This document shows, piece after piece, positions 21,462 through 39,425 of a DNA stretch of 64,000 nucleotides. The stretch comes from Actinomadura hallensis (GTDB lineage: Bacteria; Actinomycetota; Actinomycetes; Streptosporangiales; Streptosporangiaceae). The notes below the pieces were generated by a model. The model was given only the letters and a program-made list of their open reading frames with translations. It searched no databases and was not told where the DNA came from. Position 1 is the stretch's first letter, and each line of letters begins with the position of its first letter. The position numbers and the translations under genes were made by a program. The DNA is taken from assembly GCF_006716765.1 (NCBI RefSeq), contig NZ_VFPO01000001.1, positions 744,001-808,000 on the forward strand, written 5' to 3'.

Positions 21462-22541
21462 GCCCTCAACCGGTCGTAGCAATTGATCTTGCAATGGTGT
21501 AGTTCTGCTCGGCGAGTTGATCGCTGGGGGGAGCTGCCGTGGGGGCGGTACGTCAAATGCTGACATTGGTCGATCGGGAGGAGATTTCCCGGGGGGTCGC
21601 CGAGGGACTTGAGGGCAGGGCCATCGCGGAACGGATCGGACGGTGCCCGAGCATCGTGTCGCGCGAGATCGCCCGGCACGGCGGGCGGGAAACCTACCGG
21701 GCCGCGCGGGCCGACCGGACGGCGCAGCGGGCGCGGCAGCGGCCCAAGACCCGCAAGATCGACGCCGACGCCTACCTGCGGCTGGTGGTGGTCGAACTGC
21801 TCAAGCAGGGCTGGTCACCGCAGCAGGTGGCCGGGCGGTTGCCGATCGACCATCCCGGCGACCAGCATGTGAGAGTGTCTCACGAGGCGATCTACGGCTG
21901 GATCTACGCACTGCCCAAGGGCGAACTCGCCCGCCAGTGCCTGGTGCTGCGGTCAGGCCGCACCCGCCGCCGGCCCGCGCACGGCCGCGCGCCGCGGGCA
22001 CCGCGGATCCGCGGGATCCGGTGGATCGACGACCGTCCCGCCGACGCCGTCGACCGGCAGGTCCCCGGACACTGGGAGGGTGATCTCGTCGTCGGCAAGG
22101 ACGGCAAGACCGCTGTGGCCACGCTGGTGGAGCGGGTGTCGCGGTTCGTGGTCCTGGTGCCCCTGGCCGGACGGGACGCCACCACCGTGTCCGAGGCCGT
22201 CATCGACCAGGTCCAGGGCTTGCCGGACGTGATGCGCCGGTCGCTGACCTGGGACTGCGGGCCGGAGATGGCCGAACACGCCGCGATCACACTCAAAGCC
22301 CGCCTGCCGGTGTACTTCGCCCACCCGCACTCCCCGTGGGAACGCGGCACCAACGAGAACACCAACCGCTGGCTACGGGAATATTTCCCCAAAGGCACCA
22401 CCATCACCAACGACCCGGACTACCTGCAGGCCGTCGCCGACGAGCTCAACAACCGTCCCCGCGCTATCTTCGGCTTCAAGAAGCCCAAAGAAGTCTTCGC
22501 CGAGCTACTGACCAGCGGAATTGCTTCCACCGGTTGAGGGC
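21462..22541 (+). mobile_element. IS30-family insertion sequence
   Basis: A transposase gene is bounded by 23-base terminal inverted repeats. The left is at 21462-21484 (GCCCTCAACCGGTCGTAGCA...) and the right at 22519-22541; they match at 21 of 23 positions. The element is about 1080 bp. The right repeat overlaps the end of the transposase gene. No clear target duplication is visible (CG on the left, AG on the right). It sits between a histidine-kinase remnant and an IS3-type fragment, so it probably inserted into already decaying DNA. Confidence 0.85.
21539..22537 (+). CDS. IS30-family DDE transposase
   Basis: This 332-residue transposase has an N-terminal helix-turn-helix (ISRGVAEGLEGRAIAERIGR, then CPSIVSREIARHGG) as in IS30 proteins. 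The catalytic core carries DDE-triad motifs HWEGDLVVGKDGKTAVATLV (first D), LTWDCGPEMAEH (second D) and SPWERGTNENTNRWLREYFP (E). The frame is intact and GGGGGGAG precedes GTG 21539, so the enzyme is probably active. IS30 enzymes cut at the inverted repeats and can use circular intermediates. The last codons lie within the right inverted repeat. Confidence 0.92.
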   Translation: MGAVRQMLTLVDREEISRGVAEGLEGRAIAERIGRCPSIVSREIARHGGRETYRAARADRTAQRARQRPKTRKIDADAYLRLVVVELLKQGWSPQQVAGRLPIDHPGDQHVRVSHEAIYGWIYALPKGELARQCLVLRSGRTRRRPAHGRAPRAPRIRGIRWIDDRPADAVDRQVPGHWEGDLVVGKDGKTAVATLVERVSRFVVLVPLAGRDATTVSEAVIDQVQGLPDVMRRSLTWDCGPEMAEHAAITLKARLPVYFAHPHSPWERGTNENTNRWLREYFPKGTTITNDPDYLQAVADELNNRPRAIFGFKKPKEVFAELLTSGIASTG

Positions 22542-22784
22542 AGGGGCAGCAAGGGCGATTCCTTCGACAATGCCGCGGCCGAGTCGCTGAACAGCCTGTA
22601 CAAGAAGGAACTCATCGACTTCCGTGGCGGCTGGGAGAATGTGATGGACGTGACAATCGCCACGATGGAATGGGTGGCGTGGTACAACACCGAAAGGATA
22701 CATTCCTACTGCGGGAACATTCCCCCGCGCGAGTACGAGGAAGCGTTCCACAGGTCACGCGGCACAGCGACCCGGGCCGGCTGA
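22542..22784 (+). pseudogene. IS3-family transposase OrfB fragment
   Basis: The fragment encodes GSKGDSFDNAAAESLNSLYK and then ENVMDVTIATMEWVAWYNTERIHS shortened at both sides, ending PREYEEAFHRSRGTATRAG. This is the C-terminal end of an IS3-type integrase core: the D-N-A-E-S segment holding the catalytic Glu and the W-YN-R-H-LG-PP-E tail. The upstream catalytic domain is missing and sequence begins exactly at the right end of IS30, so IS30 (or a deletion with it) removed the rest. The stop at 22782-22784 is followed in the same frame by the truncated binding-protein gene. Confidence 0.85.
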
Positions 22785-23531
22785 GAACCAAGCGATCTGG
22801 CCTCCAACATCGCCGGGGCGGTCCACGCCGCGGTCAACAAGGTCCCCTCCCTCACCGACCGGCTCGGCTCCGACGGGCACTTGAAGATCTCCACCGAGTC
22901 GATCATCGCCGAGGAACCCGACGTGGTGCTCGGCCTGCCCGACGGCGTCTCGCGGGAGGCCCTGTCCGCCGTCGGCATCCCGGTGCTGAACGAGCCCAGC
23001 TTCTGCCCCGAGGGGATCGAGAACCCCGGCTACGAGACGATCTACGAGCAGATGCGGCTGTACGGGAAGGTCTTCGACCGGCGGGACAAGGCCGAGCAGG
23101 CCGTCCGGGATCTCCAGAAGCGCATCCAGACCGTCCAGGCCGGACTGCCCGACCAGAAGGGCCGCAAGGTCGCGGTCCTGTGGCCCTACCGGGGCGAGGG
23201 GACCGTCGGGGCCTACGGCGGCCAGAGCATGGCCACGCCGCAGCTCAAGACGCTCGGTGCCCGGAACGTGTTCGCCGACACCGACAAGCGCGTCTTCGAA
23301 GTCTCGATGGAGGAACTGCTGGGGCGCGACCCCGACACCATCATCCTGCTGCACACCGACGGCACCCAGCAGGAGATCAAGCAGGCGCTGCTGGACATCC
23401 CCGGCGCCAAGGACCTGCGCGCGGTCAAGGACGACGCGATTCACGTGCAGCTGTTCAACTTCACCGAACCGCCCACGCTCCTGGTCCTGGACGGCCTGGA
23501 GCGCCTGGCGACCTACTTCAAGGGAGAGTGA
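22785..23531 (+). pseudogene. Iron-siderophore ABC substrate-binding protein, 5'-truncated
   Basis: The C-terminal two thirds of a FecB/FepB-type binding protein is readable: DLASNIAGAVHAAVNKVPSL, ESIIAEEPDVVLGLPDGVSR, NEPSFCPEGIENPGYETI and VAVLWPYRGEGTVGAYGGQS, ending LVLDGLERLATYFKGE. The signal peptide, lipobox and first domain strand are missing; the frame starts right after the stop of the IS3 fragment. The first usable start, TTG 22881, would give a cytoplasmic product of 216 residues that cannot work as a binding protein. No permease or ATPase gene follows. It is distantly similar to the binding protein at 30810-31802. Confidence 0.8.
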
Positions 23532-25293: not shown

Positions 25294-26577
25294 TTGAGCG
25301 GTGGGGTGCGGGCGCCGGTACTGGTGCTGATGGGATCGGGTGAGACGAGCCCGACGATGGTGGGCGTGCACCGGGACCTGGTCGCCCGGCTGCGGCCGGC
25401 TTCGGCGGTGCTGCTGGACACGCCGTACGGGTTCCAGGAGAACGTCGCGGAGATCTCGGCCCGCGCGCAGGCGTACTTCGAGCGCAGTGTGGGGCTGCGG
25501 GTGGAGGTGCCGCGCGGGCTGCGCGGGTCGGGAGAGATCGATGCGGATGCGCAGGCGGCCGGGACCGGGGGCGATGCGGGCCTGGCCGCGGTGCGCGGTG
25601 CGGACTGGGTGTTCGCCGGGCCTGGGAGCCCGACCTACGCGCTGGCCCAGTGGCGGGGCGGGCCCGTCGGGGAGGCGCTGGCCGATCATGCCCGGACGGG
25701 GCGGGCGGCGCTGGTGTTCGCGTCGGCGGCGGCGTGCACGCTGGGCGTTTTCGCGCTGCCGGTCTATGAGATCTACAAGTCGGGTGCGTGGCCGGGGTGG
25801 GTGGAGGGCCTCGATGTGCTGGGGCATCTGGGGTTGAAGGTCGCGGTGATCCCGCATTACGACAACGCCGAGGGCGGCACGCACGACACCCGTTACTGCT
25901 ATCTGGGGGAGCGGAGGCTGCGGGTCCTGGAGCGCGAGTTGCCCGGCGACGCGGCGGTCCTGGGCTTGGACGAGCACACGGCCGCGGTGGTCGATGAGGG
26001 CGGTGACCTGGTTCAGGTGCGCGGCCGGGGAGTCATGACCGTCCGGCGGCGCGGGGAGAGCGTGGTCGTCGCGTCCGGCGAGACGATGCGGCTGACCGAT
26101 CTGCGTGCGCTGGTGCGGGGCGAGGCGGCCGGGCATGCCTCCCGCCCGGCACGGGAGAGCGGTGCCCTGGAGGCGCCGCCGGTGTCGTTACGGGACATCG
26201 TCGTCGGCTGCGAGGAGCGCTTCGAAGCGGGGGTTCGCGAGGGCGACGCCGAGGCGCTGGTGCGGGCCGTGCTGGACATTGACGCCGCGGTGGCGCAATG
26301 GGCCGGGGACACCGAGGAGGATGAGGGCGGGACCGAGTGGGCCAGGGGCGTGCTGCGCAGCCTGGTCGTCCGGCTCGGCCAGGTGGCGGGCCGTGGCCTG
26401 GCCGATCCCCGCGACGCCCTGGGTCCCGCGGTGGAGCCGCTGGTCGAGGTGCGTGCGGAGCTGCGTCGCACGGGACGGTTCGAACTCGCCGATGCCGTTC
26501 GGGAGGCGCTGCAGGCGGCGGGGGTGGAGTTGCGCGACATGCCGGACGGCACCCGCTGGCGGCGGGACCGGTCATGA
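25294..26577 (+). CDS. Peptidase S51-like protein fused to a CysS/YqeB-type C-terminal domain
   Basis: This protein has about 427 residues from TTG 25294, or 423 from GTG 25306. The first 240 residues look like a peptidase-S51/cyanophycinase-type fold: PVLVLMGSGETSPTMVGVHR, LLDTPYGFQENVAEISARAQ, the nucleophile-elbow-like VFASAAACTLGVF (small residues instead of a clear GxSxG) and a VIPHYDNAEGGTHDTRYCYL stretch. The C-terminal 130 residues contain ELRRTGRFELADAVREALQA followed by AGVELRDMPDGTRWRRD, the pattern at the end of cysteinyl-tRNA synthetases (CysS/YqeB C-terminal domain). The catalytic Ser is not certain. It may be an inactive or altered member with a nucleotide- or tRNA-related role. 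Confidence 0.7.
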   Translation: MSGGVRAPVLVLMGSGETSPTMVGVHRDLVARLRPASAVLLDTPYGFQENVAEISARAQAYFERSVGLRVEVPRGLRGSGEIDADAQAAGTGGDAGLAAVRGADWVFAGPGSPTYALAQWRGGPVGEALADHARTGRAALVFASAAACTLGVFALPVYEIYKSGAWPGWVEGLDVLGHLGLKVAVIPHYDNAEGGTHDTRYCYLGERRLRVLERELPGDAAVLGLDEHTAAVVDEGGDLVQVRGRGVMTVRRRGESVVVASGETMRLTDLRALVRGEAAGHASRPARESGALEAPPVSLRDIVVGCEERFEAGVREGDAEALVRAVLDIDAAVAQWAGDTEEDEGGTEWARGVLRSLVVRLGQVAGRGLADPRDALGPAVEPLVEVRAELRRTGRFELADAVREALQAAGVELRDMPDGTRWRRDRS

Positions 26578-26584
26578 GGAGGCC

Positions 26585-27151
26585 ATGGCGCGGCGGCGGT
26601 ATCGCGCATGGGATGCTGTTGCGATGGATTCGCATCGGGGCGTCGCGGGGGGTGCCGCGGTCGTGGTGGAGGTGCTGGCTCTGCGGGTGACCGGCGAGGG
26701 CGGCCTGGCCTTCCGCGTGCTCGCGGGCGAACTGGGCGGTGGACGGCATCCGGACGCGGTCGCACGGGAGCTGCTGGGCCTGTCCCGCGACTCCGAGGAG
26801 CATCTGCTGCATTCGACGAGCTGGCGGCACGAGCCCGCCGGACGCGTACTGCTGACCTACGCCTGCTGCCCCGACCCGAGGCCGGAAACGGCGGCCGTAT
26901 CGCTGCACGGTGAGCCGCTGGCCCGGGGTGAGGGGCCGGCGAGCCCGTCTCCGCGCAGGCCGCGCATCGAGCAGGTCGCCGCGCACGCCGTCCGGCACCT
27001 GGCATTCCTCCGGAACACCGACACCACCGCCCGCCGGGTGATCGATTCCGTCCCGGGGCTGGCCGCCGTCCTCGCCTCCTGGTCCCCGGCCCCCGCCGGG
27101 CAACTGCCCGAGCCCGCCAGGGACGGCCAGGCGGTCTACGCGTCCCGCTGA
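26585..27151 (+). CDS. Conserved hypothetical protein after the S51-like gene
   Basis: This 188-residue protein starts at ATG 26585, only seven bases after the S51-like stop and right behind GAGGAGG; ATG 26624 is an alternative. Visible stretches are AVVVEVLALRVTGEGGLAFR, SWRHEPAGRVLLTYACCPDP and RIEQVAAHAVRHLAFLRNTD. The first half looks like a beta-rich domain and the second is helical. I do not recognise the family. The strong ribosome-binding site and tight spacing suggest that it works with the S51-like protein. No signal or membrane segment is present. Confidence 0.65.
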   Translation: MARRRYRAWDAVAMDSHRGVAGGAAVVVEVLALRVTGEGGLAFRVLAGELGGGRHPDAVARELLGLSRDSEEHLLHSTSWRHEPAGRVLLTYACCPDPRPETAAVSLHGEPLARGEGPASPSPRRPRIEQVAAHAVRHLAFLRNTDTTARRVIDSVPGLAAVLASWSPAPAGQLPEPARDGQAVYASR

Positions 27152-27153
27152 AG

Positions 27154-27741
27154 TCAGCGCGGATCGAGCTGCGCCTGCCTTTTCTCCGCCGTGGCCGGTG
27201 GCTCCGAGCGATCGAGGATGTAGACCGACATCGGCAACTGCGGGTAGAAGTCGGCGGGCAGCGCGACGTCCTGGCGCCAGCCCAGCCGCCGGTAGAGGCG
27301 CGCGGCGGGCGCGCCGGGATGGGTGATCAGCCAGGCGGATTCCCATCCCGCGACGGCCCTGGCGAGCAGCGTCTCTCCCAGGCCGCGCCTCCGATGGGCG
27401 GGGTGGACGAACAACTCGGCGAGTTCGAAGCTGTTCCGGGTGAGTGCGGCCGCGCGCTCGGCACCGGCCGCCCGGATGAGCGTCGTGTAGATCCGGCTGC
27501 CGGACAGGTCGGCCGGTGTGGGCCAGCCGTAGCAGACACCGGCCAGCCTGCCGCCGTCCCGCATGATCCACGCCGCGAACCCTTCGCGGCCTGTGGAGGC
27601 CGCCAGCTTCTCCGGGTAGGCCGCGAGCTCTTCAGGGGTCTCCGACCAGGGCGGGTGCGCGTAGCAGTCCCGGTAGAGGCCGGCGACCTCGGTGCTGATC
27701 TCCAGCGTCGCCCGTCCGTCCAGCGGGAGCACACCGTCCAC
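27154..27741 (-). CDS. GNAT-family N-acetyltransferase
   Basis: This 195-residue acetyltransferase shows acetyl-CoA-binding motif A FELAELFVHPAHRRRGLGET (V-H-P-x-x-R-R-x-G-x-G) near residue 105, motif B-like AWLITHPGAPAARLYRRLGW, and an N-terminal YRDCYAHPPWSETPEEL. The acceptor is unknown. The start is GTG 27741. A Nur-like box (27771-27787) lies 30 bases upstream, so the gene may respond to nickel together with the superoxide dismutase gene. It converges on the hypothetical gene ending at 27151 with only two bases between the stops. Confidence 0.85.
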   Translation of the reverse strand: MDGVLPLDGRATLEISTEVAGLYRDCYAHPPWSETPEELAAYPEKLAASTGREGFAAWIMRDGGRLAGVCYGWPTPADLSGSRIYTTLIRAAGAERAAALTRNSFELAELFVHPAHRRRGLGETLLARAVAGWESAWLITHPGAPAARLYRRLGWRQDVALPADFYPQLPMSVYILDRSEPPATAEKRQAQLDPR

Positions 27742-27770: not shown

Positions 27771-27787
27771 TTGCGACTATCTTGCAA
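27771..27787. promoter_or_regulatory. Nur-like box upstream of the GNAT gene
   Basis: TTGCGACTATCTTGCAA has the 6-5-6 layout of the Nur box known from Streptomyces (TTGCAA, five bases, TTGCAA), with one mismatch (G for A in the left arm). It lies 30 bases before GTG 27741, where a Fur-family repressor would block transcription. An exact copy of the motif is at 28627-28643. Confidence 0.55.
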
Positions 27788-28015: not shown

Positions 28016-28615
28016 TCAGGCGTTCTTGGCGGCGGTGAGGCGGGCGGCGACGTCGTTCCAGTTGACCAGGTCCCAGAGCTTCTGGACGTAGTCGGGGCGC
28101 ACGTTCTTGTACTGCAGGTAGTAGGCGTGCTCCCAGGCGTCGAAGACCAGCAGCGGAGTGGAGCCGATGCCGACGTTGCCGTGGTGGTCGTAGACCTGCT
28201 GGATGATCAGCCGCTGCCCGAGGGGCTCCCAGCCGAGCACGCCCCAGCCGGAGCCCTGGACGGTCGCGGTCGCCTGGGTGAGCTGCTTCTTGAACGCATC
28301 GAACGAGCCGAAGTGCTCGTCGATGGCCGAGCCGAGCTCGCCGTCGGGGCGGTCGCCGCCGTCGGGGGACAGGTTGTCCCAGAAGATCGTGTGCAGGACG
28401 TGCCCCGACAGGTTGAACGCCAGGGTCTTCTCCAGGCCGACCAGCCCGCCGAGCTGACCCTTGTCGCGGGCCTCCTCCAGCTTCTCCAGGGTGTCGTTGG
28501 CGCCCTTGACGTAGGCGGCGTGGTGCTTGGCGTGGTGCAACTCCAGGATCTCGCCGGTGATGGCGGGCTCCAGGGCGGCGTAGTCATAAGGAAGGTCCGG
28601 AAGTTCGTAGGCCAT
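28016..28615 (-). CDS. sodF: Fe/Mn superoxide dismutase, Nur-controlled
   Basis: This 199-residue protein from ATG 28615 starts [19 protein letters not shown]. Metal ligands are visible: His in [10 protein letters not shown] (about residue 27), His in [10 protein letters not shown], and Asp and His in [10 protein letters not shown]. It converts superoxide to hydrogen peroxide and oxygen in the cytoplasm. GTG 28624 is an alternative start; no ribosome-binding site is visible, so translation may be leaderless. An exact Nur-type palindrome ends 12 bases upstream. By analogy with Streptomyces sodF, this suggests an iron enzyme repressed when nickel is available. The Fe versus Mn preference is inferred, not seen. 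Confidence 0.88.
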
Positions 28616-28626
28616 GGGAGCCACTA

Positions 28627-28643
28627 TTGCAAGGATCTTGCAA
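28627..28643. promoter_or_regulatory. Exact Nur-type box (TTGCAA-N5-TTGCAA)
   Basis: TTGCAAGGATCTTGCAA is a perfect palindrome of two TTGCAA halves with five bases between. That is the consensus known for the nickel-responsive Fur-family repressor Nur. It sits directly at the 5' end of the superoxide dismutase gene, overlapping the place where a leaderless transcript would start, so binding should shut the gene off. Confidence 0.75.
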
Positions 28644-28912: not shown

Positions 28913-29722
28913 TCACCGGCGGCCTTTCCTGCGGGGACCGTCTCTTTCGGGAAGGACGGTGATCTGGTGGATGCCGGTGCGGGGGTGTGCGCCCACTTCG
29001 GCTTGGACGCGGTAGACATCGGCCAGCAGGGCCGGTGTCAGCACCTGGGCGGGTGTTCCGGTGGCGACCAGGCGTCCGCAGTCCAGAACGCAGAGGCGGT
29101 CGCAGTAGGCGGCGGCGAGGTTGAGGTCGTGCAGCGCGATGACCGCGGTCGCGCCGATGCGGCGCACCAGTTGGAGCGCGTCGAGCTGGTGGCGCAGGTC
29201 GAGATGGTTGGTGGGTTCGTCCAGGACGAGGGTTCCTGCCTGCTGGGCGAGGGCGCGGGCGATCAGGACGCGTTGCTTCTCGCCGCCCGAGAGCCGGTCG
29301 AAGGGGGCGTCGGCGAGGTGCGCGGCCTCCAGTTCGGCCAGTGCTTCGGTGATGATGGCACGGTCGGTGGCGGCGTCGCCCTGGAAGGCGCGCTTGTGCG
29401 GGGTACGGCCCATCGCCACGACGTCGTAGGCGGTGAGCTCGAAGTCCCCGGTGGTGTCCTGGAGGACGGCGGCCAGCCGTCGCGCGAGGTGTCTGCCGGG
29501 CATGCGCCAGATGTCGTCGCCGTCCAGCAGGACGCGTCCGGAGGTGGGGCGCAGCGCGCGGTAGAAGGTGCGCAGCAGCGTGGACTTCCCGGCGCCGTTG
29601 GGCCCGACGAGCCCCACGACCTGCCCGGGGGCCGCTTCCAGTGAGACGTCCGCCACCAGAGCGCGGCCGTCGGCGACGACGGTCACTTTCTCGGCTCGCA
29701 AGGTGCCGGTGCCGCGGGTCAT
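28913..29722 (-). CDS. ABC transporter ATP-binding protein (FecE/BtuD type)
   Basis: This 269-residue ATPase has Walker A GLVGPNGAGKSTLLRTFY near residue 37, a Q-loop (AAVLQDTTGDFELTAYD), signature LSGGEKQRVLIARAL near 144, Walker B LVLDEPTNHLDL and the switch His in VIALHDLNLAAAYCDRL. The order and length match the FecE/BtuD group that powers import of siderophores, heme or corrinoids. The ATG overlaps the permease stop as ATGA. It is the last gene of an operon headed by a cobalamin riboswitch, so corrinoid import is the likeliest job. Confidence 0.9.
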   Translation of the reverse strand: MTRGTGTLRAEKVTVVADGRALVADVSLEAAPGQVVGLVGPNGAGKSTLLRTFYRALRPTSGRVLLDGDDIWRMPGRHLARRLAAVLQDTTGDFELTAYDVVAMGRTPHKRAFQGDAATDRAIITEALAELEAAHLADAPFDRLSGGEKQRVLIARALAQQAGTLVLDEPTNHLDLRHQLDALQLVRRIGATAVIALHDLNLAAAYCDRLCVLDCGRLVATGTPAQVLTPALLADVYRVQAEVGAHPRTGIHQITVLPERDGPRRKGRR

Positions 29723-30813
29723 CGTGGCGCCTTACGCTTCATGAGGTACAGGAAGAAGGGACCGCCGACCAGTGCGGTGAGGATCCCGACGGGGATCTCC
29801 TCGGGGCTGATCAGGATGCGGGCGGCCAGGTCGGCGGCGATGAGGAACGCCGCGCCGAGCAGTGCGACCGCGGGCAGCGCGCGGCGGTGGTCGGCGCCGA
29901 CCAGCAGCCGGACGACGTGCGGCATGATCAGGCCGACGAAACCGATCGAGCCGCTGACCGCCACGACCGTGCCGATCATCAGGGCGACCAGCACGAACAG
30001 TGCGGCGCGGAACCGGTGCACGTCCAGCCCGAGTGACGCGGCGGCCTCCTCCCCGGCCAGCAGCAGGTTGAGGCGGCGCGACAGCCCGAGCAGGACCGCG
30101 GTCCCGGCCAGCACGGCGGCCGCCGGGATCCACAGCACCGTCCAGGTGGTGCCGGCCAGGCCGCCCAGCATCCAGCGCATGGCGGACTCGGCGCTGTGCG
30201 GGTCCTTGGAGGTGATCACCAGGTAGCCGGCGACCGCCGAGAGCACCTCGGCGGTGGCGACGCCGGCCAGGACCAGCCGGACCGTGGTCATCCGCCCGCC
30301 GGATCGGGCAAGGAAGTAGACCAGGACCAGTGCGAGCAGTGCGCCGCCGAAGGCGGCGAGCGGCAGCGAGAACCTGCCGAACCAGGCCATGTGGAAGACC
30401 ACCACCAGCACCGCGCCGACGGTCGCGCCGGACGACACCCCCAGCAGCATCGGATCGGCCAGCGGGTTGCGCACCAGCGCCTGCAGCGCCATCCCGCACA
30501 CCGACAGGCCCGCTCCCACCACTGCGCACAGCAGCACCCGGGGGAGGCGGACGTCCAGCACGATCGTCTCGCGAACCGGGGGCCAGTCCGGGGCGGCCAG
30601 CGCCGGATGGGCGGAGTGCAGCAGGATGCCCCAGACCTGACCGGGCGGCAGGCTCACCGACCCGGCCGCGATCCCGGCCGTCGCCGCCACCAGCACCAGC
30701 CCCGCCAGCAGCGCCAGCACGAGCGGATACGGAATCCCGGGTCCGCGGGAACGCGCGCCTCCGGTGACCGGCGCGCGGTCACCGGAGACGCGGGGTTCGG
30801 CCAGGCCGGTCAC
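29719..30813 (-). CDS. FecCD/BtuC-type ABC permease
   Basis: This 364-residue membrane protein has about ten helices. Family marks are SLPPGQVWGILLH, RLPRVLLCAVVGAGLSVCGM followed by ALQALVRNPLADPMLLGVSSGA shortened at the end, and the cytoplasmic coupling region GSIGFVGLIMPHVVRLLVGA with DHRRALP. The start is GTG 30813, which overlaps the binding-protein stop in GTGA. Two such subunits would form the membrane pore with two copies of the ATPase. The operon and its riboswitch point to corrinoid uptake; a siderophore system cannot be ruled out from sequence alone. Confidence 0.88.
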   Translation of the reverse strand: MTGLAEPRVSGDRAPVTGGARSRGPGIPYPLVLALLAGLVLVAATAGIAAGSVSLPPGQVWGILLHSAHPALAAPDWPPVRETIVLDVRLPRVLLCAVVGAGLSVCGMALQALVRNPLADPMLLGVSSGATVGAVLVVVFHMAWFGRFSLPLAAFGGALLALVLVYFLARSGGRMTTVRLVLAGVATAEVLSAVAGYLVITSKDPHSAESAMRWMLGGLAGTTWTVLWIPAAAVLAGTAVLLGLSRRLNLLLAGEEAAASLGLDVHRFRAALFVLVALMIGTVVAVSGSIGFVGLIMPHVVRLLVGADHRRALPAVALLGAAFLIAADLAARILISPEEIPVGILTALVGGPFFLYLMKRKAPR

Positions 30814-31802
30814 GCGAAGCGGTCGGGATGCAGCTGCCGGGCCAGCGACTCCACCGCGTCCGCCACCCGCACACCGGTCACCGTCGACGACAGCGGCAGC
30901 ACCGCGAACCGCTGGTTCCTGATCGCCGGGACGTCCTTGAGCGCCGGATGCCCCAGCAGGAACTTCTTCTTGTCCTCGGCGGACTGCGCACCGTAGTCGT
31001 AGATCACGATGACCTCGGGGGCGCGTTCGGCGAACTGCTCGAACGAGACGTCCCCGTAGGGTTTGTCGACGTCGGCGAACAGGTTGTCGCCACCGGCCAG
31101 CCGGATCATCTCGTTTCCGATTCCCGCGCCGCCCGCGGTGAAGACGGTCTTGTCGCCGCTGTCGTAGACGGCGACCTTGAGCGGCGTGATGCCGGCCAGT
31201 TCGCCCTTGACGCCGTCCAGGACGGCGCGCATCGAGGCGATCCGCTTCTCCGCCCGGTCGGGCACTCCGAAGATCTTGGCGACGGTGCGGATCTCCTCCT
31301 CGACCGTGGCCATCGTCACCGGCCCCTCGGGGCACTCCTCGATGTTGAGGTGGCTGTCGATCCCGGCTTTCTTCAGTGCCGCGCGGCTGCGGCCGTCCTT
31401 CTCCTCGAAGGCGCTCTTCCAGCCGCCGTAGACCAGGTCCGGCTCGGCCGCCAGCAGCGTCTCGAAGGACGGGTACTCCTTGGAGATCACCTTCACCCGG
31501 TCGTAGGCGGCCTGGAACTCCGGCAGCACCTCGTCGTCGAGGTAGCCGGTACCGACCATCGACTCCTCCAGGCCGAGCGCCAGCATCACCTCGGTCGCGT
31601 GCTGGTTCAGCGACACCGCGCGCTGCGGCGGCCGCTGGTAGGTCGTCGTCACCCCGCAGTTGGACACCGTCACCGGAAACCCGGCAGGCGCCGCACCCGC
31701 CCGGCCTTCGGCGGCACGCTCGGAACCGCCGCCGCATCCGGACACCAGCAGCAGCGCCGCCGCCAGCCAGGCCAGCGCCGCCCCACCACGAATGCGGATC
31801 AT
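30810..31802 (-). CDS. Corrinoid/siderophore-type ABC substrate-binding lipoprotein (BtuF/FecB fold)
   Basis: This 330-residue protein has a lipoprotein signal peptide ending in the lipobox LVSGC (about residues 19-23) and a Gly-rich linker. Mature-domain marks are VTVSNCGVTTTYQRPPQRAV, NQHATEVMLALGLEESMVGT, ISKEYPSFETLLAAEPDLVY and a C-terminal VADAVESLARQLHPDRF. Two lobes joined by a long helix are expected. Control by a cobalamin riboswitch suggests a vitamin B12 or cobinamide ligand. The ATG overlaps the stop of the [2Fe-2S] gene as ATGA. Confidence 0.88.
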   Translation of the reverse strand: MIRIRGGAALAWLAAALLLVSGCGGGSERAAEGRAGAAPAGFPVTVSNCGVTTTYQRPPQRAVSLNQHATEVMLALGLEESMVGTGYLDDEVLPEFQAAYDRVKVISKEYPSFETLLAAEPDLVYGGWKSAFEEKDGRSRAALKKAGIDSHLNIEECPEGPVTMATVEEEIRTVAKIFGVPDRAEKRIASMRAVLDGVKGELAGITPLKVAVYDSGDKTVFTAGGAGIGNEMIRLAGGDNLFADVDKPYGDVSFEQFAERAPEVIVIYDYGAQSAEDKKKFLLGHPALKDVPAIRNQRFAVLPLSSTVTGVRVADAVESLARQLHPDRFA

Positions 31803-32185
31803 GACATCACCTCCCGGGACGAGCCGGCCGCCGGCCGCCGCGGCGGCCGGATGGAGTACAGCTCCAGAACGGCGGGAGGATCGGCCAGGCCCGGGCCGCC
31901 TGCGCGGACCCAGGCGGCGATGTCATCGGTGGCCGCGGCGTCGTTCACCAGGCCCAGCCACACCGGGTGGGCGCCCTTCGCCCGCCCAGCGGCCGAAGGC
32001 TGCACGACGACGATGTTGGCCTGCTCGCACGCGTCCAGGCACCGCGACACCCGGACCGGCGCGGCTTGCCGGAGGCGTTCGAGTTGGCCGGCGTGATCGA
32101 TACCGGTCACCTTGGGACTGCCGCAGCAGCAGTCCCGGCACACGGTCACCCGGCACGGTGCCGGGCCCGACGAGCCCATGGGCAT
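31799..32185 (-). CDS. (2Fe-2S) thioredoxin-like ferredoxin domain protein
   Basis: This 128-residue protein from ATG 32185 has GGAGG seven bases upstream. The cysteines CRVTVCRDCCCGSPKVTG and RVSRCLDACEQANIVVVQPS fit a thioredoxin-fold [2Fe-2S] ferredoxin, where two Cys in the first loop and two in the second bind the cluster. The helix DDIAAWVRAGG closes the fold. It is the first gene behind a cobalamin riboswitch and is coupled to the importer genes, so it may reduce cobalt in imported or newly made corrinoids. That role is inferred from position only. Confidence 0.8.
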   Translation of the reverse strand: MPMGSSGPAPCRVTVCRDCCCGSPKVTGIDHAGQLERLRQAAPVRVSRCLDACEQANIVVVQPSAAGRAKGAHPVWLGLVNDAAATDDIAAWVRAGGPGLADPPAVLELYSIRPPRRPAAGSSREVMS

Positions 32186-32221
32186 ACCAGCCCTCCTCTC
32201 TGGGGAGATCCGCCCCAGTTC

Positions 32222-32395
32222 CATCGAGGAGGCGACCGCGTGAGTCTCCTGGCTCTCGGGTCAACGCTCGTCCCGGCCTTCCCACCCGCTCTCGCGGGCA
32301 GTGGCGTCGTTCGGGATCCGCTCGCCGATCACAGTGGCGGTACCGCGCCGGATTCGCACCGGCTTCCTCGTTCCGCCGTCGCCTACACCGCACAT
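32222..32395 (-). ncRNA. Cobalamin riboswitch before the ferredoxin/ABC importer operon
   Basis: Read on the minus strand, the element holds the conserved core GGAAGCCGGTGCGAATCCGG (32348-32367), then GCCACTGTGATCGG, GGGAAGGC and the B12 box GAGCCAGGAGACTC (about 32242-32255). These are the hallmark blocks of the adenosylcobalamin riboswitch. It lies about 40 bases before the ferredoxin start and should switch off the importer operon when cobalamin is plentiful. Confidence 0.93.
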
Positions 32396-32453
32396 CGTGA
32401 CACATGCGGAACTTGCGCAAAAGTCGGCCGGTGTCTTAGCGGAGGGCTGCGCG

Positions 32454-38069: not shown

Positions 38070-39211
38070 CACTGTTCCTCCCTCGGTCCCGCCATCTTCA
38101 GCACGACCGGGCCGCGGGGCGTCCCGCAGCGCCGTTCGCATCCCGCCCAGTGGACGGGCGTCTCGGGGGCGCGCTCCAGGCCGGCGACCCAGCGCCGTGC
38201 GTCGCCCTGGACGTCGCCGCGCGACTTCGCGCAGCCGGGGCTCCCGGTGCAGGCCGTGACGCCGACCCAGGGCGAGGCGGCGTCGACCGCGAAGCCGGCC
38301 TCCGCGAGTTTCGCGGCGCTCACCCTCGCCTCGCCCGGGTCCAGATCGCGCAGGACGACGCTCCGCCGCGGCGTGATCCGCACCTCGCCGGGGTCGCCCG
38401 CCGTCTCGCCGAGCGCTCCGACCTGGGCCCCGGACAGCCGCCCCAGCGGCGGGACGATCTCCAGCGCGACCCTCCCGTCCCGCTGCTCGATGAAACCCGC
38501 GTACGCGGGTCCCGGCACCGAAACTTTCGGGTCGTCCAGGGGCGTCCCACCCAGTTTCGCGGCGACCAGCCGCACCCCGTCCGGCACCTCCGCCAGCCGC
38601 CAGGCGTCCTCCCGGACGTCGAGGAACGCCCCCGCGGCCGCGAGCATCGCCGCGACCGGATCCCCGCCGAGGTCCAGGTCGAGCGGCGTCCCGGCCAGCC
38701 GGAGAGCGGCGGGCCCGAACGCGACGTCGGCGTCCAGGGCCGCGATGTCGCCGCTGCCGTCGTCGAACCCGAACAGGAACCGGCCCGGCAGCCCCGCCAG
38801 CCGCGGGACACCGCACAGCGCCCGGTCGAGCGCCGTGACCAGCGTGTCCGTCGCCAGGACGCCGTGCGGCCCGCGCCCGCCGAGCGGGGACGCGACGATG
38901 TTGCGCACCCGCTCGTGCGACGGCGAGGGCAGCAGCCCGGCGCCCGCCAGCCGGTCCGCGAGCCGCGCCGGGTCCCGGACGCCGCGCAGCTGGAGGTTGC
39001 CGCGGGAGGTCAGCTCGATCACGTCGCCGCCCAGCTCGCGGGCGGCTGCGCCGAGCACGGCGAGCTGCGCGGATGACACCGCGCCGCCCGGCGTACGGAC
39101 CCGCGCCAGCGGGCCGTCGGCCGCCTCGTGGGTCTGCAGGGCGCCCGGGCAGGCGTCGGGGCCGGGCCGTCTCGCCTTATGGACATTCGGCACGTGCAGG
39201 ATGTTAACCAC
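38066..39211 (-). CDS. cobG: Precorrin-3B synthase, CobG
   Basis: The protein is 381 residues if GTG 39211 is the start; no ribosome-binding site is clear, so a few residues may differ. It belongs to the sulfite/nitrite-reductase-like fold: [37 protein letters not shown], and cluster-binding cysteines in [19 protein letters not shown] and [11 protein letters not shown], which hold a [4Fe-4S] centre. CobG uses oxygen to make the hydroxylactone of precorrin-3B, so the organism follows the aerobic route. It heads a three-gene operon and is divergent from cobN across a cobalamin riboswitch. Confidence 0.9.
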
Positions 39212-39239
39212 AGTTTGCAGGCGGCCCGTGCTGCCGTAC

Positions 39240-39425
39240 TCTTCTCCCCAGGTGATGGCAATGGGAGGAAGCCGGTGCGAATCCGGCGCGGTCCCGCCAC
39301 TGTGACCGGGGAGCGAACCCCGCTCAAGGCCACTGCCCGACCCCTCCGGGGGCCGGGTGGGAAGGCCGGGGCGAGCTGTGATCCGGGAGCCAGGACACTC
39401 CTGCCGTCGCGACACCCGCGACCGG
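39240..39425 (+). ncRNA. Cobalamin riboswitch before cobN
   Basis: The plus strand shows the conserved core GGAAGCCGGTGCGAATCCGG (39267-39286), CCGCCACTGTGACCGG, the peripheral GGCCACTGCC hairpin, GGGAAGGC and the B12 box GAGCCAGGACACTC (about 39387-39400). The element ends about 30 bases before the GTG start of cobN, close to GGGGGAGGATCC, so it probably blocks the ribosome-binding site when cobalamin is bound. Confidence 0.95.

Follow-up and report, generated by a model that had tools for sequence, protein, structure and literature searches.

A 64,000-nucleotide stretch of the Actinomadura hallensis genome (the window) holds a gene, here called FUS, whose product joins a domain with the fold of peptidase family S51 to the C-terminal part of a cysteinyl-tRNA synthetase (CysRS), and beside it lies a small gene of an unnamed family, here called P2. 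The locus raises the question of what a hydrolase of this fold would do with the anticodon-binding part of a synthetase, and what its neighbour contributes. Our results point to a possible new tRNA-directed hydrolase that would be switched on at metal shortage. The features on which the argument draws are collected in Table 1.

Table 1. Features of the FUS-P2 locus, in positions of the window
Feature	Position	Strand	Basis or remark
FUS, S51-like hydrolase with CysS C-terminus	25306..26577	+	423 aa from GTG 25306; alternative start TTG 25294; coding-score gene call, profile and fold matches
S51/cyanophycinase-fold domain, FUS residues about 1-272	25306..26121	+	fold and profile matches
Ser140 codon, presumed nucleophile (ASAAA replacing GxSAGA)	25723..25725	+	invariant 50/50; aligned with SAGA serine of 6nqc
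His184 codon, presumed catalytic histidine	25855..25857	+	invariant 50/50; aligned with PH motif of 6nqc
Asp222-Glu223 codons, presumed third triad residue (GxDEHT motif)	25969..25974	+	invariant 50/50; aligned with GIDE of cyanophycinase
CysS anticodon-binding domain, FUS residues 370-419	26413..26562	+	Pfam CysS_C; 8qhp, 1li5 and others; G34-contact residues kept
-10-like hexamer GATGCT, 6 nt before P2 start	26612..26617	+	equivalents CATGCT/AATGCT in close relatives
Nur-type palindrome TTGCGATGGATTCGCAT over P2 start	26619..26635		one mismatch to TTGC-N9-GCAA
P2, unnamed family, degenerate Nudix-like fold	26624..27151	+	175 aa from ATG 26624; alignment of relatives, predicted model
GNAT acetyltransferase gene	27154..27741	-	Pfam Acetyltransf_7/1; no conserved neighbour of the pair in other loci
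Perfect Nur box TTGCGACTATCTTGCAA upstream of GNAT gene	27771..27787		motif scan
Fe/Mn-type superoxide dismutase (SOD) gene, sodF-like	28016..28615	-	sodF is a classical Nur target
Perfect Nur box TTGCAAGGATCTTGCAA upstream of SOD gene	28627..28643		11 bp before SOD start

The two halves of the fusion protein

The start of FUS is ambiguous between the two codons given in Table 1. Scans with the single sequence found the CysS tail only, and Pfam Peptidase_S51 gave no match in the window protein itself; profiles built from its relatives found both halves. With the profile of relatives, the cyanophycinase-like exopeptidase 6nqc was matched at E=7e-9, and Pfam Peptidase_S51 matches 11 of 50 family members. 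A Foldseek search with the AlphaFold model of FUS (pLDDT 88, pTM 0.72, relative placement of the domains uncertain) returned 6nqc first (E=6e-12), then cyanophycinase 3en0 and PepE 1fy2/6a4r, with S51 structures matched at E 6e-12 to 3e-4 and a weaker match to CysRS bound to tRNA-Cys (1u0b, E 0.019).

The catalytic triad of family S51, as described for PepE and MccG, consists of Ser, His and a last residue that is either Glu or Asp (PMC9239234). FUS carries S140, H184 and D222/E223 at the aligned positions. Its fold is that of the family members PepE, CphB and MccG, with 6nqc as the nearest structure (TM 0.7-0.77, target-normalised), but it departs from them in having SAAA rather than SAGA at the nucleophile, in sharing only 16-20% identity, in its permanent C-terminal CysRS-type extension, and in that most members escape the Pfam S51 model. 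FUS is, as predicted from these matches, an S51/cyanophycinase-fold hydrolase with a complete and invariant Ser-His-Asp/Glu set.

The second half begins with a CysRS-type helical bundle, from about residue 295, which is followed by the anticodon-binding domain. Both are covered by the profile match to the cysteinyl-tRNA synthetase 8qhp (E=5e-10 over about 122 residues), and Pfam CysS_C was found in 41 of the 50 members, being the sole CysS domain that Pfam finds among them; no class I synthetase catalytic domain is recognised. Compared with cysteinyl-tRNA synthetase and its domain PF23493, FUS thus has the homologous helical bundle and anticodon domain with all reported G34-contact residues, but lacks a recognised synthetase catalytic domain and has the tail joined to a hydrolase instead.

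In E. coli CysRS, R427, D436 and W432 contact G34 of the anticodon and R423 takes part in a water network (PMC12684709). The FUS equivalents of R423, R427, W432 and D436 are R, R, an aromatic residue and D in 50/50 relatives, and the positions corresponding to R439, D451 and W458 are likewise invariant, while many other tail positions deviate from actinobacterial CysS, as at 450, where E is replaced by R in 38/50. From these residues we infer that the tail may still read the anticodon of tRNA-Cys; by its conservation it looks functional.

Matches to FUS were found in hundreds of stretches of the genome collection, labelled 'hypothetical protein' where annotated. In the surveys of relatives, class, order and genome collection, the strong matches extend into the CysS tail, fragments and split alignments aside. 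Judged from these alignments, the fusion is old and stable, and since it is kept full-length across the Actinomycetota, the CysS homology lies far beyond chance. The sequence-only reading had seen both an S51-like N-terminal half and a CysS-type C-terminus in this gene and had left the presence of the S51 triad open; the two halves are confirmed by the profile, fold and domain matches, and the triad residues are in place.

The partner gene and its pairing with FUS

The second gene had at first been read from an ATG at 26585, seven bases behind FUS, with a very strong ribosome-binding site and translational coupling of the two genes. The GGAGG lies only 2 nt from this ATG, and the start at 26585 is made improbable by Actinomadura chibensis, in which an in-frame stop stands just 5' of the conserved P2 start, together with the homology of P2, which begins near ATG 26624. 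The true start is probably the latter, and the hexamer ahead of it suggests a leaderless transcript. With this start, an apparent promoter of its own for P2 and a gene order that varies among genomes, the coupling model is not supported.

P2 has no match in NCBIfam, in Pfam (above chance level) or in the PDB. Its predicted model (pLDDT 87.5) weakly resembles Nudix-fold proteins, which make up most of the top Foldseek matches; AraR comes first, followed by NadQ and NudC (best E=3e-3, TM up to 0.54). The Nudix box GX5EX7REUXEEXGU is present in 0/25 members, which speaks against P2 as an active Nudix enzyme, and P2 differs from the Nudix-fold regulatory domains of AraR and NadQ also in that no DNA-binding domain was recognised. 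Among the motifs invariant in the family are HSTSWR and, in a helix, AHxxRHL with its two unchanging histidines.

Among 347 genomes of the order Streptosporangiales, FUS was found in 101, P2 in 92 and both in 84 (odds ratio 147, Fisher p=3e-53, with kinship among genomes ignored), so that 17 of the 101 FUS genomes have no detected P2. Nearly all mapped pairs (78/82) lie within 1.5 kb of each other, 63 of them divergent, 10 with FUS then P2 and 5 with P2 then FUS. In a first survey, five Actinomadura genomes besides this one had a substantial FUS gene, and each of them had P2 alongside it, three times downstream of FUS and twice upstream; adjacency was also seen in loci from Actinoplanes, Winogradskya, Pseudonocardiales and Streptomyces. 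Within a genus the distribution of FUS is patchy. That adjacency is kept despite varied order indicates a functional link and argues against simple translational coupling; the two-gene pairing itself, as the earlier reading had supposed, is conserved.

A second locus type, in Acidimicrobiia and others, has FUS behind the gene of an alpha/beta hydrolase, and the two often overlap by 4 bases. An ABC-3/ZnuA operon runs convergently to FUS in roughly 25 of 80 loci, and LarE-like and CDF genes recur in subsets. Several of them (L049, L057, L068, L087, L093 and similar) carry a LarE-like gene divergent from the alpha/beta hydrolase-FUS unit, then convergent genes for an ABC-3 permease, an ATPase and a ZnuA-type protein.

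No other gene accompanies the pair consistently. The TauE/SafE permease upstream, which had been proposed to export a product, has no homologue beside the pair in the other loci compared, many of them with flanks of only 1.5 kb, and neither an exporter gene nor any additional biosynthetic gene recurs beside FUS throughout. The GNAT gene was considered as a conserved third member and ruled out, being beside the pair only in this genome among the loci compared. A phage origin was likewise rejected, with no match in phage records, and the plasmid collection gave only four matching records, one of them a whole chromosome-sized replicon.

Elsewhere in the window, 21557-23531 holds an IS30-type transposase gene (21557-22537, our own reading) and a transposase fragment (22521-22784), which abut an N-terminally truncated B12/F420-0-type substrate-binding protein (22881-23531). 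Another genome (locus L041) has no FUS but keeps, near a SOD gene 96% identical to that of the window, 31-33 residues left over from the C-terminus of P2, which suggests that the module was lost there at the same site.

A Nur-type palindrome at the P2 promoter

A palindrome common to P2 promoters agrees with the Nur box as published, tTGCaa-N5-ttGCAA (PMC3919588). Its six-base core, TGC-N9-GCA, occurs in 25 of 28 P2 promoters, the same ones in which the motif was first noticed and relatives that are not independent of each other. The background in randomly drawn windows is 5.5%, and a control motif occurs in none of the 28 promoters. With each genus- or order-level group represented only once, the core is present in 9/11. 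Another 29 P2 loci were fetched later, largely from related or the same genera, and 19 of these have a site with at most one mismatch, against a background of 6.5%. In most Nonomuraea (L052, L053, L061, L064, L067, L092), the -30 box upstream of P2 is overlapped by a second palindromic repeat, ATGC..GCA at -47, which is built on the same core and is possibly part of a double operator.

The genome, a single contig of 6.7 Mb, encodes a Nur orthologue (E 7e-54 to 3eyy) and a Ni-SOD, and contains 17 perfect Nur-type sites, two of which, those of the GNAT and Fe/Mn-SOD genes, lie within 2.1 kb of P2. Other perfect boxes immediately precede the genes for a CbiM-type Ni/Co ECF transporter (contig position 1738882) and for a FecCD permease (contig position 484810); these are probable nickel-uptake operons. 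Nur is encoded in 100 of the 101 FUS genomes of the order, a co-occurrence confounded by phylogeny, the exception being a genome 63% complete. The locus resembles the Streptomyces Nur regulon (sodF, nikABCDE) in its box type, in the Fe/Mn-SOD gene with its box just ahead of the start, and in the presence of Nur and Ni-SOD, but the literature that we found does not list FUS or P2 as Nur targets, and their control here is predicted. The GNAT gene carries a perfect box yet was not found beside the pair elsewhere.

It is a real possibility, though one we would bet against, that the palindrome is the site of another repressor unrelated to nickel. Besides the mismatch in the window site, the outer bases in relatives are often C/G rather than T/A, the left half-site overlaps the -10 element, and the exact core is missing from P2 promoters of Pseudonocardiales and Actinocorallia. 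The window-wide count of Nur-type sites is moreover not in excess of shuffles, so the argument for Nur is carried by position and conservation rather than by number. Against another repressor stand the match to the published consensus, the presence in the same genome of a Nur orthologue and of boxes with the full consensus at genes for SOD and Ni/Co-type transporters, and the closeness to P2 of two of the 17 perfect sites. This question of regulation is independent of the alternatives for the chemistry weighed below, and our confidences in them are not meant to sum to one.

Control by Zur, suggested by ZnuBCA neighbours in Acidimicrobiia, was dropped: the palindrome agrees with the Nur box and does not appear to fit that of the zinc repressor, and the Znu genes are in convergent orientation to FUS instead of sharing an operon with it. 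A FecCD-type transporter (28913-31802) was rejected as a Nur target, its operon following a cobalamin riboswitch that the near-match at 32404 overlaps. This FecCD/BtuCDF-type ABC transporter operon (28913-32412, riboswitch 32222-32412 on the minus strand) leads into a cluster of genes for cobalamin biosynthesis, where another cobalamin riboswitch is located (39205-39422).

In the window, the Nur-type box lies at P2 rather than FUS, so Nur control need not extend to FUS at this locus. No such box was found before FUS in the alpha/beta-hydrolase-type loci, and because these lineages do without it, nickel control cannot be essential to what FUS does at its core.

Proposed function and its alternatives

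PepE-type S51 enzymes take an amino acid with a free amino group at P1 and release what follows, and MccG cleaves an aminoacyl group from a nucleotide leaving group (PMC9239234). The substrate of MccG, an aminoacyl-nucleotide, is by analogy chemically close to aminoacyl-A76, and MccG resembles FUS in being an S51 fold that acts in a tRNA-synthetase context; it differs in that no tRNA-synthetase domain is described for it (PMC9239234), and FUS lies in no recognisable mcc cluster, no mcc genes being recognised among its recurrent neighbours in our general neighbour comparison. S51 chemistry, the nucleotide leaving group of MccG and a reader of tRNA-Cys together make FUS most simply an acyl-tRNA-Cys hydrolase. 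Of the peptide or tRNA-linked substrate imagined by the sequence-only reading, the tRNA-linked alternative is strengthened by the retained G34-contact residues.

In our model, FUS would be brought to tRNA-Cys by the captured CysRS anticodon-binding module and would most likely hydrolyse an acyl group at the aminoacyl end. P2, with its apparently non-catalytic Nudix-like fold, would work with FUS in Streptosporangiales and some relatives. Nickel-loaded Nur would repress P2, and probably also FUS where the genes are divergent, and the pair would be made when nickel is scarce. We give a probability of roughly one in three to this reading of FUS as a tRNA-Cys-directed S51 hydrolase with P2 as its nickel-limitation partner, in which tRNA binding, the reaction, Nur control and contact between FUS and P2 are each predicted. 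Its chief doubt is that the anticodon is far from the CCA end, and the reach of the S51 site is uncertain.

The present evidence does not separate deacylation from inhibitor detoxification or cysteine transfer, and FUS might also be an ordinary S51 peptidase for small peptides (Asp-X or similar), its CysS tail serving folding, oligomerisation or partner binding without any tRNA. The closest characterised fold relatives (6nqc, PepE, cyanophycinase) are indeed peptidases, and Orf2 of Streptomyces, likewise of family S51, is a genuine dipeptidase E (PMC11078827). Such a peptidase is nevertheless doubtful: every full-length family member retains the CysS tail, the residues that contact G34 stay invariant amid drifting neighbours, which a simple scaffold would not require, and the nucleophile elbow differs.

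We regard it as unlikely that FUS detoxifies an aminoacyl-nucleotide inhibitor of CysRS, with the tail as an aid in competing for the CysRS-tRNA site. Destroying a small inhibitor needs no anticodon reader, no toxin-biosynthesis genes recur beside FUS, and the Nur-type operators and Ni/Zn-type neighbours would be left unexplained. The precedent is real, since MccG cleaves processed microcin C, an AspRS inhibitor, and standalone homologues protect cells (PMC9239234), and the patchiness of FUS within a genus is what resistance genes often show. Least credible to us is a Cys-tRNA-dependent acyltransferase, in which the serine would move cysteine to an acceptor to make a metabolite or metallophore that aids metal uptake, with P2 as an accessory. 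A serine nucleophile does act on aminoacyl-tRNA in cyclodipeptide synthases, and the metal-starvation setting would be accounted for, given the Nur-type boxes of P2 promoters and, in Acidimicrobiia, the adjacent ABC-3/ZnuA genes; but there is no known product and no constant exporter or biosynthetic neighbour, and an S51 site would more simply carry out hydrolysis.

More broadly, we tentatively suggest FUS as the first of a class of S51 serine hydrolases or acyltransferases that a captured CysRS anticodon reader directs to acyl-tRNA-Cys and that are deployed with P2 in starvation for nickel, or in other lineages perhaps zinc. Both domains are known. What appears new is that they are combined, that the fusion is stable, that P2 accompanies it and that there is a link to Nur; no description of any of these was found in the literature searched, a scope that excluded most subscription journals.

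If the hydrolase reading is true, metal-starvation regulation would be linked directly to tRNA-Cys chemistry, and a serine-peptidase fold would be found working on acyl-tRNA. FUS and P2 genes are widespread in Actinomycetota, as their occurrence within the single order surveyed illustrates, and their products are called hypothetical where annotated, so that a single biochemical experiment would provide many proteins with their first function.
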